From positions 1,922,001 through 1,986,000 of the forward strand of contig NZ_AP019846.1 of the NCBI RefSeq assembly GCF_007990635.1: a stretch of DNA of 64,000 nucleotides. The letters are read 5' to 3'. The first letter of the stretch is position 1. Each line of letters begins with the position of its first letter. This stretch comes from Leptotrichia hongkongensis (GTDB lineage: Bacteria > Fusobacteriota > Fusobacteriia > Fusobacteriales > Leptotrichiaceae). This document shows, piece by piece, positions 24,288 to 38,959 of this stretch. Both the position numbers and the translations under genes were made by a program. The notes under the pieces are model-generated. The model made no database searches, had not been told where the DNA came from, and saw only the letters and a list, made by a program, of their open reading frames with translations.

Positions 24288-24653
24288 TTATTTTGTAAGA
24301 TTACATGAAATATCTTTACCGTCTTGATTGAATACTGCCTCATCACCTTTTATGTGAATTTCAATTTTTCCATTGCTGTATCGTGAACCGCTTCCCGATA
24401 CAACCTGATCCAGTTGAAATTTAGCATTTGATGCAGCATCTACTAATTGAATACTATTATTTGTAATATAATTTACAACATATTGCTTTCCATTACAACT
24501 AAATTTTTGTGAAACAATAGCTTTACGTCTGTCATTTATTACTGGATGTTTTCTCTTTATTCTTCTATGTCGGTTTGCTGCGACTACATTTAATGAACTT
24601 CCTAATAATAAAATTCCTGCTATTATTGTCACTGCTTTTCCAATTAATTTCAT
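24288..24653 (-). CDS. Secreted MliC-like protein (putative C-type lysozyme inhibitor)
   Basis: 121 residues with an N-terminal signal peptide (hydrophobic to about residue 25). The mature part has the MliC/PliC pattern: FSCNGKQYVVNY, then VVSGSGSRYSNGK, KGDEAVF and a final Cys in ISCNL, giving two Cys for a disulfide. Family members bind host C-type lysozyme with the SGSGxxY loop. No lipobox is seen, so it is probably periplasmic. It lies 18 bases after the NlpC/P60 gene and probably shares its transcript. Confidence 0.7.
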   Translation of the reverse strand: MKLIGKAVTIIAGILLLGSSLNVVAANRHRRIKRKHPVINDRRKAIVSQKFSCNGKQYVVNYITNNSIQLVDAASNAKFQLDQVVSGSGSRYSNGKIEIHIKGDEAVFNQDGKDISCNLTK

Positions 24654-24671: not shown

Positions 24672-25319
24672 TTATGCGTTGTGAACTCTCACACCATATT
24701 TAAAATATTTTCTCCAATAAGGGCTCTTTAATGAAGACATTACTACTCCTTTTGAAGACGAAGCATTTATAAACAATGAATTTCCAACATAAACTGCTGT
24801 ATGGCTTACTCTATTATCTGGTCTAAAATAAACAATATCCCCTGATTTCAAATTCTTCGCTGAAACTCTTGTCCCTTTTTTTATTTGCTGCTGTGAAACT
24901 CTAGGAAGTTCTTTATTAAAGGCTTCACGGTAAACTCTACGTGTTAAGGCCGAACAGTCAATTCCATTTTTAGAATCTCCACCCCATGCATATTTTGTCC
25001 CTCTCCATTTTTTGTAAGATGTCAAAAGTTTTCTTTCAACAGCTACTTTTTTTCTTTCATGAGCAGATCCTGAAGACATTACTTTAGCATGTCTTTGTCT
25101 TAATTCTGTCATTTTTGTCTCAATAAGAGCACTTTTATTATTTGAAGGAATTCCATAAATTCCTGTATTTCCTGCACTATGACTTTTTCTATTATTTACA
25201 GGTTTGTGAGAAGTTTTCGCTTTGTCAATTTTTTTAGTTTTTGAAGTTTTTGCGTGTAAATTTGATCCTACAAAAGCAGATAACATACATACTGCTGTTA
25301 AAAACTTATTTTTTCTCAT
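24672..25319 (-). CDS. Secreted NlpC/P60 peptidoglycan hydrolase
   Basis: 215 residues: signal peptide (to about AHA/LHA near residue 24), a basic Ser/Lys-rich linker, then an NlpC/P60 domain from about residue 95. The catalytic Cys is in GIDCSALTRRVY, the His in RVSHTAVYVG, and a third polar residue follows near NASSSKG. Such enzymes cut stem peptides of peptidoglycan, often between D-Glu and diaminopimelate. AAAGGA precedes the ATG. Co-transcribed with a lysozyme-inhibitor-like gene, which suggests a shared cell-wall role. Confidence 0.88.
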   Translation of the reverse strand: MRKNKFLTAVCMLSAFVGSNLHAKTSKTKKIDKAKTSHKPVNNRKSHSAGNTGIYGIPSNNKSALIETKMTELRQRHAKVMSSGSAHERKKVAVERKLLTSYKKWRGTKYAWGGDSKNGIDCSALTRRVYREAFNKELPRVSQQQIKKGTRVSAKNLKSGDIVYFRPDNRVSHTAVYVGNSLFINASSSKGVVMSSLKSPYWRKYFKYGVRVHNA

Positions 25320-35483: not shown

Positions 35484-37274
35484 TTAGTATTTGAAGATTA
35501 CGTTTGTAGATTTTGGTTTTCCTATTTCTTTTTTCTCTTTCAAATAATCTATAAATATTTTTGTATCACTTAAATGAGTGTCTGTTCCACGTTTTTGAGC
35601 AGTGATTTTTCCTAACGTTGTGTAACCATCTTTTCCTTTGGCTATATAAGAGTTTACAGCTAACATGTAGGATTTTTTAGCGTCAATTGGTACCCATTTG
35701 TTTGCTTTAAAGTCAAATACTTCTATTTTTTTGACCCTTGTTCCAAGTTTTCCTTCTTTTGTGGCTTCGTATCTGATTCCTGCACCATAAGGGAATGCTC
35801 CTGTTGAACCTCCGTTTAGTACATAGTCAATCGCATCTTCTAATGTCTGTTTCACTTCTGCACCTGTAATATCAGTTATGAATACTGTATTTGAAGTGAA
35901 TGGCAATAATGAATATGCTAAATCATAAGTAAATACACCAGGATTTAGTGTAATTCTTACATTTCCCGCATTTCCAATCACAAAATCAACATTTCCAGTT
36001 CCTGTATTTCTTAACTTATGTAAAACTGATTCAGCTACAAGAGTTGTTGCGAAAGAACCGTCCTTATTGTGTTCATTTGGTACTCTGTTGTCTGAACCTC
36101 CTGGGATTTCTTCTGTAATTTTACCAACTGTACGTTTCCCAAGTTCTGTTTTTTCTTTCTGATATCTTTCAAGAAGTTTTGCTAAAGCTGGATCATTTTT
36201 GATGGCAGCTATATTTTTATTATTTTTTATTGAACTTAAAATTTCATTTTTTTCTTTTTGATCTAATTGAACTCCTTTTCCTTCAGCATTTTTCACTTCA
36301 AAAAAGTCATCTCCAATTAAAACTTTTGGAGTTGGAATTAATTCAGTAATTACTCCATTTTTATCAAATTTTGCCTTCATTTGTCCTAATAAATATGAAT
36401 AATTCCATGCTTCTGCAATATAAACTGGATTCCCATTAGGAGAATTCACTTTTTTAGGATAGCTGTCTGCTTCTGGAACTAACCCAAATTGTTCAAATTC
36501 TTTTCCTAAAAGATAGTGAGTATCCCCAGTTATAATTAAATCTACACCGTCAACTTTTTGTCCAATTTCAACATTTTTTTCATATCCTGCATGAGATAAT
36601 AATATTATTTTATTTATTCCTTTACCTTGTAATTCGTTTACATATTTTCTTGCTGTTTCAATTTCATCTAAAAATTTGATATCATCTCCAGGACTTGATG
36701 ATTCCTTAGTCTTTTTCACAACATCTATTCCTATAATTCCAATATTCTGACCACCGATATTCTTTATCATATACGGTTTCCATTTTCCTTCCAGAATACT
36801 TCCTTTATCAGGAACAACATTGGCTGAAACTACTGGTATTTTTAAAACATCTAGAAATGATTTCAAAAATTTGTTCCCATCGTCAAATTCATGATTTCCC
36901 AATGTATAAACGTCAAAATTTATTGCATTCATAAGTTCAGCATCGGCTTTTCCTTCAAATAACGTATAATAAAGTGTTCCTGTTACAGCATCTCCTGCGT
37001 GTAATACAAGAGTATTTTTATTATTCTGTCTAAAATTTTTGATTGCCTGTGCCACTCTTGGCAACCCTCCAATATGTACCGTAACAGTCTTCCCATTAAG
37101 TTTAAGAGGCATTTTTTCCTCTTCAAGATGCGAGTGATGGTCATTAATATGAGCCACATTTAGCTCAAATGCTCCAGATGAACTTTGGCTGTTCGATTTA
37201 CGACTAGTCTTTGCCTCCAAATTAGCTGCTGAAAATAATGCTAATGTCAATCCCAATAATAATAATTTTTTCAT
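35484..37274 (-). CDS. Secreted 5'-nucleotidase/UshA-family enzyme
   Basis: 596 residues with a signal peptide (MKKLLLLGLTLALFSAANLEA, cleavage near residue 22). The metallophosphoesterase domain shows NVAHINDHHSHLE, LHAGDAV, LGNHEFDDG, LSHAGYEKN and TGDTHY; the 5'-nucleotidase C-terminal domain begins near residue 390 (TVGKITEEIPGGSDN) and has FVIGNAGNVRITL and the late SYIAKGKDGY. It probably removes phosphate from extracellular or periplasmic nucleotides for salvage. An IS has inserted about 95 bases upstream of its start and may affect its promoter. Confidence 0.9.
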   Translation of the reverse strand: MKKLLLLGLTLALFSAANLEAKTSRKSNSQSSSGAFELNVAHINDHHSHLEEEKMPLKLNGKTVTVHIGGLPRVAQAIKNFRQNNKNTLVLHAGDAVTGTLYYTLFEGKADAELMNAINFDVYTLGNHEFDDGNKFLKSFLDVLKIPVVSANVVPDKGSILEGKWKPYMIKNIGGQNIGIIGIDVVKKTKESSSPGDDIKFLDEIETARKYVNELQGKGINKIILLSHAGYEKNVEIGQKVDGVDLIITGDTHYLLGKEFEQFGLVPEADSYPKKVNSPNGNPVYIAEAWNYSYLLGQMKAKFDKNGVITELIPTPKVLIGDDFFEVKNAEGKGVQLDQKEKNEILSSIKNNKNIAAIKNDPALAKLLERYQKEKTELGKRTVGKITEEIPGGSDNRVPNEHNKDGSFATTLVAESVLHKLRNTGTGNVDFVIGNAGNVRITLNPGVFTYDLAYSLLPFTSNTVFITDITGAEVKQTLEDAIDYVLNGGSTGAFPYGAGIRYEATKEGKLGTRVKKIEVFDFKANKWVPIDAKKSYMLAVNSYIAKGKDGYTTLGKITAQKRGTDTHLSDTKIFIDYLKEKKEIGKPKSTNVIFKY

Positions 37275-37344: not shown

Positions 37345-37370
37345 AAAAAAGTAAAATTTTTAAAAAACAT
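37345..37370 (+). repeat. Direct repeat flanking the IS (left)
   Basis: Six A residues followed by GTAAAATTTTTAAAAAACAT; the same 26 bases occur at 38458-38483. The pair brackets the insertion sequence and looks like a target duplication, though unusually long. Confidence 0.65.
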
Positions 37371-38455
37371 TGTATAGATGTCAAACATTTGTTACAAAAT
37401 ATATTAAAAAAAATATTTCTTTCCTAATGTATCTTTAACCTACTGATTTTCCTTGTACTCTTTTAATACTTCATTTGGACTCTTAAAGCCTAGTACTTTT
37501 CTTGATATGTTGTTGTATCTTGTATTGTATTTCCTTATTGCCCTTAACAGTTCTTCCTTGCTTTTAAATTTCTTGTCTGCATAGTACTTGCTGTCAAGCC
37601 TGTGGCTTCTTTCCACTTTTCCATTCTCCCATGGCGAATATGGACGGGTTGTCACGTACTCTATCCCCTTCTCCTCCAGTTTCAGCTCAAACAGTGTTTT
37701 CTTATCACTTTCAGAATTTGTGAACTCTTTCCCATTATCTGTCTGAACTTTCTTTATGTCAAATCCCAGCTCCCTTTCCAAGTTCTCTAGAAACTTTGCA
37801 GTCTGATAGGTGCTTTTTTCATCTGCTATCCTTAACACTCTTTTTCTTGTATATTCATCTAATGCTGTTATTTGATAATACTTCTGGTCACGTGTTCCAA
37901 ACTGTATGCATTCTTCTGGAACATATTTTATGTCTATCTGCACTCTTTCCCCAGGTACTTCGCCTGTTCAACTTTCTTTTTTCTTTTATGCTGCTTTTTA
38001 GGCTTTTCTTTGGCATTGCCCTTCATTTTCCTTATTATCTTGCACATTGAATCGTATGTACGGCTGTAGCCTTCCTTTCTTGCTTTAACATAGACTTCTG
38101 CCAGCCCTTCATAGCCAAATTTCCTGTACTTTTTCATAACCAGCTCTATTTCTTCTTGCGTGTGCTGGTTTGGGTGGCTTTTAGGTCTTCTGCTTTTTGG
38201 CAGAAGAGACTGGACTGTTCCGTCGTATCTGTCTCTCCAACGTTTTATCTGCTGACGTGATGTCTTATACTTCACTGCTGCCTTTGAATTATTATTATGT
38301 TTTATTGCATACTCAATTGCCCGTTGACGAACACGGTATATTTCTGATATACTACTCATATGAAAGGTTTCTCCTTAATGTGGTTTGGTAGATTTACATT
38401 ATATCAGAAACCTTTCTTTTTTTGTATATTCTTGTCACATATCTATTATCTCACA
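37371..38455 (-). mobile_element. IS481-like insertion sequence, about 1.1 kb
   Basis: The element lies between two 26-base direct repeats. Its ends begin TGTATAGATG (left) and, on the other strand, TGTGAGATAA (right); they share a TGT start and an inner TGTnACAAnAATATA pattern, so imperfect inverted repeats are likely. It carries one transposase gene broken by a frameshift. Exact ends were set by eye. Confidence 0.7.
37440..38359 (-). pseudogene. IS481-like transposase, frameshifted
   Basis: The N-terminal frame (37934-38359, 141 residues) has a helix-turn-helix region (YKTSRQQIKRWRDRY). The C-terminal frame (37440-37943) has an rve integrase core: Asp in VQIDIKYVP, Asp in KKVQTDNGKEF and Glu in ENGKVERSHR. 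The second frame lies in -1 relative to the first. The change must occur in about 37943-37975, because a TGA blocks the second frame further upstream; no convincing slippery site sits there. A single-base deletion is the simplest reading, so the enzyme is probably inactive. Confidence 0.75.
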
Positions 38456-38457
38456 AC

Positions 38458-38483
38458 AAAAAAGTAAAATTTTTAAAAAACAT
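38458..38483 (+). repeat. Direct repeat flanking the IS (right)
   Basis: Same 26 bases as 37345-37370. It lies in the region upstream of the Arg-rich peptide gene. Confidence 0.65.
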
Positions 38484-38589
38484 AAATTTCAAATAGATTT
38501 TACAATATTTTAAAATAAAATAATGTTATAATTCCTTAGATAATTTTTTTAAATTATCAAAAAAGAATTTTTGTAAAGGAGAAAAGAAA

Positions 38590-38838
38590 ATGAATATAAA
38601 AAATTTTATGAAAAAACTAATTTTAATTTTAGGAATACTTGGAATTTCAGTTACTTCATTTGCAGCAACTAGAAGAAATAACAGGGTTGTATACGTAAAA
38701 AGAGAACCTTCTCGTAGAATAATAAGAAGAAGATACATCTTTATAAGAGTTCCAAGAAGAAAAAAAGTTGTATATGTGAAAAAAGAGCCTTCTCGTAGAC
38801 AAAGACGTGCAAGAATAGCTGCTGGAAGAAGAAGATAA
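38590..38838 (+). CDS. Small secreted Arg-rich protein, unknown function
   Basis: 82 residues with a signal peptide (FMKKLILILGILGISVTSFA, cleavage near residue 26). The mature part of about 56 residues contains roughly 22 Arg and several Lys and almost no acidic residues. It repeats a VVYVKxEPSRR unit (VVYVKREPSRR and VVYVKKEPSRR). AAAGGAG precedes the ATG and a terminator follows. Roles such as binding nucleic acid, LPS or other surface polyanions are possible but unproven. Confidence 0.75.
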   Translation: MNIKNFMKKLILILGILGISVTSFAATRRNNRVVYVKREPSRRIIRRRYIFIRVPRRKKVVYVKKEPSRRQRRARIAAGRRR

Positions 38839-38899
38839 CTTTAACTTAGTAAGACATTTTATGTCCTTTTATAATTTAAAAAATTTAATATTTTAAAAC

Positions 38900-38947
38900 A
38901 CAAGGGGCTTCAATTCTCTCTTATGAACTGTACCCCTTGTTTTTTAT
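38900..38947. terminator. Terminator between the Arg-rich gene and the acyltransferase gene
   Basis: ACAAGGGG (38900-38907) pairs with CCCCTTGT (38933-38940), followed by TTTTTATTG. On the minus strand GTTTT follows, so weaker use by the converging gene is possible. Confidence 0.75.
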
Positions 38948-38959
38948 TGTTATTTGTTT

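Follow-up and report, generated by a model that had tools for sequence, protein, structure and literature searches.

A conserved, exported polycationic peptide with repeated VYVK(K/R)EP units in Leptotrichia and its tentative assignment to the cell envelope

RESULTS

A small exported peptide and its surroundings

The window analysed here, a stretch of 64 000 nucleotides from Leptotrichia hongkongensis (NZ_AP019846.1, positions 1 922 001 to 1 986 000 of the forward strand), contains a short open reading frame, a divergent gene for a 5'-nucleotidase-type enzyme and, separating the two, an insertion sequence (Table 1). A signal peptide had been noted in a preliminary description of this DNA, and residues 1–25 of the peptide, MNIKNFMKKLILILGILGISVTSFA, indeed form by eye one of the Sec type that would be cleaved at S-F-A; n-, h- and c-regions with an SPase I site were likewise seen by eye in the aligned homologues, with K8, K9, G15, S20 and F24 of the signal peptide being invariant in 14 of them. 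A lipoprotein could be ruled out, with no lipobox Cys found and Cys lacking altogether in 14/14 homologues, signal peptide included. With the presumed cut the mature chain has 57 residues, and the 56 residues first given for it apply if cleavage occurs one position later. It holds 20 Arg, 5 Lys, 2 Glu and no Asp, corresponding to 35% Arg and 44% Arg+Lys, so that its Arg-rich nature and its near lack of acidic residues were described correctly while the original figure of about 40% Arg was slightly high. The unit VVYVK(R/K)EPSRR indeed occurs twice, at residues 33–43 and 60–70.

Table 1. Features at the peptide locus, in positions of the window
Feature	Position	Strand	Basis
Divergent 5'-nucleotidase-type enzyme	35484-37274	-	Pfam 5_nucleotid_C and Metallophos
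Insertion sequence, apart from the peptide gene	37371-38458	-	HTH_28 and rve domains, copies, direct repeats
Extended -10 promoter box TGTTATAAT (hexamer 38527-38532)	38524-38532	+	TGnTATAAT in 13/13 orthologous upstream regions
Ribosome-binding site AAAGGAG, 8 nt before ATG	38575-38581	+	Sequence
Peptide ORF, 82 aa	38590-38838	+	Read from sequence
Signal peptide, 25 aa, presumed cut between SFA and AT	38590-38664	+	Read from sequence
Mature chain with stop codon; 57 aa, polycationic, net charge +23	38665-38838	+	Composition, purifying selection
Repeat unit 1, VVYVKREPSRR (core VYVKREP, 38689-38709)	38686-38718	+	Sequence; core in 14/14 homologues
Repeat unit 2, VVYVKKEPSRR (core VYVKKEP, 38770-38790)	38767-38799	+	Sequence; core in 14/14 homologues
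Terminator-like hairpin, ACAAGGGG...CCCCTTGT, then five T	38900-38940	+	Fold, letters

The -10 box is accompanied by no good -35 box as judged by eye, and GGAG or GGGAAG stands near the position of the ribosome-binding site in 12 orthologues. A fold of 38890-38950 gave -17.4 kcal/mol (z -4.9, with none of 200 shuffles as good), and the hairpin could serve both of the convergent genes. A consensus promoter and terminator scan, with a hairpin loop limit of 8, reported neither the -10 box nor the hairpin, and the window gave no Rfam match at gathering scores.

Having its own promoter box, the peptide gene looks like a stand-alone gene. The 5'-nucleotidase gene adjoins it on the opposite strand in 10 of the 13 genomes examined of a Leptotrichia-type genus, while in the other three (G005, G007 and G009) the peptide gene is found elsewhere, between genes presumed by eye to be rfbC and rsmG/mnmG. 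The downstream genes vary, the next one being on the same strand at about 300–480 bases in five genomes. Across the 13 neighbourhoods of about 15 kb, no constant neighbour of at least 60 residues was found apart from the 5'-nucleotidase side, and no immunity, dedicated export or modification gene was recognised as constant, in a comparison that covered frames of at least 60 residues and in which most clusters were unannotated.

The insertion sequence is one of nine near-full-length copies in the genome that are 99–100% identical, and its borders were set from seven of the other copies. Its HTH_28 and rve frames overlap, and it is flanked by identical 25-bp direct repeats (37346-37370 and 38459-38483) that represent the target duplication. 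Although located just upstream of the peptide gene, it left the promoter box intact. The length of the 25-bp duplication is reminiscent of the IS1202 family. PMC10132070 deals with that family.

Conservation of the gene within the genus

A search for homologues with repeated units, as suggested in the preliminary description, yielded orthologues in 13/13 genomes of the genus, the present one included, as well as a homologue in one other genome of the family. Of the two refuting conditions named in that description, the lack of homologues is thereby answered. The orthologues have 82–89 residues in 10 genomes and 69–70 in three. The additional unit-bearing member, having three units, was found in G014, a genome of another genus, by a profile search of 33 family genomes (the 13 of the genus and 20 others). 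We also noted that the orthologue of G001 (L014, 1501-1770, + strand) carries a third unit as well, its spacers being Lys-rich. When 98 genomes of the phylum were searched, matches at E ≤ 0.001 came from 26 of them and the unit occurred in the same 14 alone among the translated matches, which besides the 14 members and a second cationic family (see Discussion) comprised L053, L054, L055, L058 and L084–L088; further distant members could be present among the unread matches of the family and phylum searches, which are L056, L057 and those lacking a locus.

For the mature part of the peptide, dN/dS was 0.16–0.47 in 15/15 pairs among six near genomes, 0.07–0.27 in three pairs of a second genome group and 0.55–0.66 in three pairs of a third group having few changes. 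Taken together, the orthologues, the purifying selection, the -10 box, the ribosome-binding site and the terminator-like hairpin argue, at the level of sequence, that the frame is a real conserved protein-coding gene. A chance frame or low-complexity artefact, for which one could cite its short length and the lack of relatives in BLAST-based scans of public collections, was accordingly rejected as next to impossible, being contrary to each of those five observations, while the scans themselves were insensitive here: a tblastn-confirmed scan of genome contigs missed a 94% identical relative present in that very collection, which was found by an exact DNA pattern.

Since that relative was missed, the BLAST-based negatives are weak. 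They include the phage and plasmid collections, in which neither tblastn nor word-11 blastn gave a match to the peptide. The exact DNA pattern hit a single viral contig, with an unrelated-looking frame (18 K+R, 20 D+E and no signal-peptide-like start). Pfam and NCBIfam gave weak and scattered matches alone, the best having an E-value of 0.0086 in one of the 13 members, and in a PDB profile search no match had an E-value below 0.25. Membership of a known family was thus rejected, with no convincing relative in these three collections and with the Asr profile absent. Among open-licence papers, none dealing with this peptide or containing VYVKREP or VYVKKEP was found. The best reading of these searches is that the peptide is probably restricted to the genus, with the one homologue in another genus of the family.

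Charge and core motif are retained while Arg and Lys interchange

Among the 13 genus members the Arg to Lys ratio drifts from 25:4 (G010) to 7:14 (G009), with Arg+Lys steady at 41–49% and the net charge between +19 and +27; the mature chain of G014, with 42% Arg+Lys of 55 residues and a net charge of +20, is of similar composition. In the K/R columns of nine genomes, 10 of 15 changes were between Lys and Arg as compared to 18–37% expected from codons, a range set by the transition rate and giving one-sided P from 0.00004 to 0.02 in what is a column count, not a tree-based test. With Lys thus replacing Arg freely, Arg, the residue stressed in the preliminary description, had to be abandoned as the essential one, and it appears from the alignments that selection keeps the charge together with the VYVK+EP core.

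That core was nearly invariant. In 30 units from the 14 genomes, V-Y-V-K-(K/R)-E-P was seen with V in 30, Y in 30, V in 29, K in 29, K/R in 30, E in 30 and P in 29, so that positions 3, 4 and 7 each deviated once. Each chain has two or three units, separated by basic spacers that differ in length and sequence. In 14/14 chains there are as many acidic residues as units, the Glu of the unit being the sole acid of each mature chain, and His is absent from 12 of the 14. That the two units were recently duplicated or evolve in concert was rejected, as their DNA shares a mean of 18.1 of 21 bases within a genome, which is no higher than the 17.7–18.3 seen between genomes. A looser DNA pattern of the motif was not enriched in the genome of the window, occurring at 12 places against 15 for a reversed control; one of the 12, which encodes IYIKNE close to the start of what is taken for RlpA, was regarded as chance.

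The original remark that a charge of this kind is rare beyond the inner membrane could be confirmed locally. Among 63 exported-looking frames, collected with a crude signal-peptide regular expression from the window as well as from 12 related regions of 15 kb and thus representing a local and not a genome-wide sample, the 13 members had net charges of 0.38–0.45 per residue, with the next highest at 0.16 and a median of 0.02. Elsewhere in the window, two adjacent exported-looking frames on the minus strand (24288-24653 and 24672-25319) have basic stretches, with net charges of 0.09 and 0.16 per residue, respectively.

AlphaFold2, supplied with 14 sequences, gave a mean pLDDT of 55.9, with residues 28–64 under 50 and a low-confidence helix at residues 69–79. 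This result fits a largely disordered mature chain without proving it, as an alignment of 14 rows may lower the confidence just as disorder does.

DISCUSSION

Proposed role and alternatives

Of the roles considered, we tentatively favour, by analogy and short of calling it probable, that of an envelope polycation which would stabilise the envelope electrostatically or be a charge-based chaperone, similar to Asr in its working. A housekeeping function of this kind is suggested because the charge is constant and hardly titrates and because the gene is found throughout the genus. The peptide gene would be expressed constitutively and its product exported by the Sec route, whereupon the signal peptide would be cleaved and the mature chain would stay largely disordered. 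Its charge would then hold the chain on anionic polymers of the envelope (LPS phosphates, lipid head groups and possibly extracellular DNA), where it might serve as stabiliser or chaperone in the manner reported for Asr in E. coli. The VYVK+EP units, which are taken as docking motifs because hardly any drift is seen in them, in contrast to the rest of the mature chain, would bind a fixed partner. The putative ligands listed in the preliminary description, namely LPS, peptidoglycan, DNA and glycans, would be plausible with regard to the charge of the peptide.

In favour of the envelope reading we counted the genus-wide presence, the selection, the steady charge, the core, the low-confidence fold, the promoter box, the hairpin and the existence of a second cationic family. 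Against it stand neighbours that name no pathway, a 5'-nucleotidase that is divergent, another gene context in 3 of the 13 genomes, a weak C-terminal helix in the model, the His-poor chains and the lack of an Asr match in 33 genomes.

It is also conceivable, but rather unlikely, that the disordered chain with its two or three VYVK(K/R)EP docking units is a multivalent electrostatic tether, which would link a specific partner bound to the outer membrane or to peptidoglycan with anionic polymers. About equally doubtful is a function in biofilm formation or coaggregation, where the polycation would be released, bind extracellular DNA or partner cells and glue the biofilm. The charge and the export signal would agree with that function, as would the ability of Leptotrichia to adhere to many oral species in biofilm formation, stated in PMC11534697; the sequence, however, holds no sign of release past the outer membrane and no visible surface anchor.

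A secreted antimicrobial or competitor-directed cationic peptide, an option raised at the outset, is now not favoured and must be considered distinctly unlikely. High positive charge, small size and a signal peptide are what such a peptide would have, but the gene is present in 13/13 genomes of the genus, dN/dS was under 0.5 in all of the near pairs, and no constant gene of at least 60 residues lies beside it except on the 5'-nucleotidase side, a criterion that shorter immunity genes would escape. Moreover, lytic peptides seldom carry near-invariant cores like VYVK+EP. Very improbable, finally, is a precursor from which trypsin-like cleavage would free VYVK+EP units as messages: two or three near-invariant cores in variable basic spacers might suggest it, but the core's own Lys/Arg would be cut, the core is nearly the same between species, unlike species-specific pheromones, and, the 5'-nucleotidase side aside, no constant gene lies nearby.

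Few parts of bacterial genomes are annotated as poorly as the small exported proteins. The present one belongs to the core of a common oral genus and still has no convincing Pfam or NCBIfam model. Should it be a charge-based stabiliser of the envelope, or feed the biofilm matrix, it would offer a simple handle on envelope cohesion and on life in mixed biofilms. Since the motif is near-invariant while the basic chain around it drifts freely, it would furthermore lead directly to a binding partner.

Comparison with Asr and other cationic peptides

According to PMC10746267, which cites Ren et al. 2022, Asr is an intrinsically disordered periplasmic chaperone of E. coli that aids outer membrane integrity, and the same paper describes it as strongly acid-induced. 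Membership of the Asr family was ruled out, since the Asr profile (PF06392) matched in 0/33 genomes of the family while matching in E. coli among 14 control genomes; the Pfam scan of the 13 members also gave no Asr match. The likeness is instead one of character, both being small, exported, strongly basic, low-complexity chains with few acidic residues. Mature Asr, with a start chosen by us, has 17 Lys, no Arg, 8 His and 3 D+E in 81 residues, whereas the Leptotrichia peptide has 41–49% Arg+Lys, almost no His and the VYVK+EP units. An acid-specific role for the latter is not supported by its composition, because with His nearly absent its charge hardly shifts with pH, unlike that of the His-bearing Asr. 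PMC11534697 reports that unassigned Leptotrichia correlated negatively with plaque acid tolerance in caries-free children, although it also counts Leptotrichia species among the taxa with a higher abundance in caries-active samples.

Members of the second exported cationic family are present in 9 of the 13 genus genomes (G000, G001, G002, G003, G004, G006, G008, G011 and G012), and its alignment (A3, 11 rows) also includes one protein each of G014 and G015. It resembles the peptide in having a similar signal peptide and a mature chain with 30–40% Lys+Arg, but is Lys/Pro-rich and lacks the VYVK+EP unit in all 11 rows. Its gene adjoins a small gene having, by eye, a J-domain-like start in 5/5 examined loci of the genus (L002, L018, L023, L025 and L031) and in 0/2 of other genera. 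Another genus of the family has an exported-looking, Lys/Pro/Ala/Thr-rich peptide of 66 residues with an Asr-like composition (G016, L087, 1504-1704, + strand).

Cationic antimicrobial and cell-penetrating peptides are alike in size and charge. The Leptotrichia peptide differs from that class in that no constant partner gene was seen, in carrying a near-invariant motif that bears a Glu, and in being a core gene of its genus.
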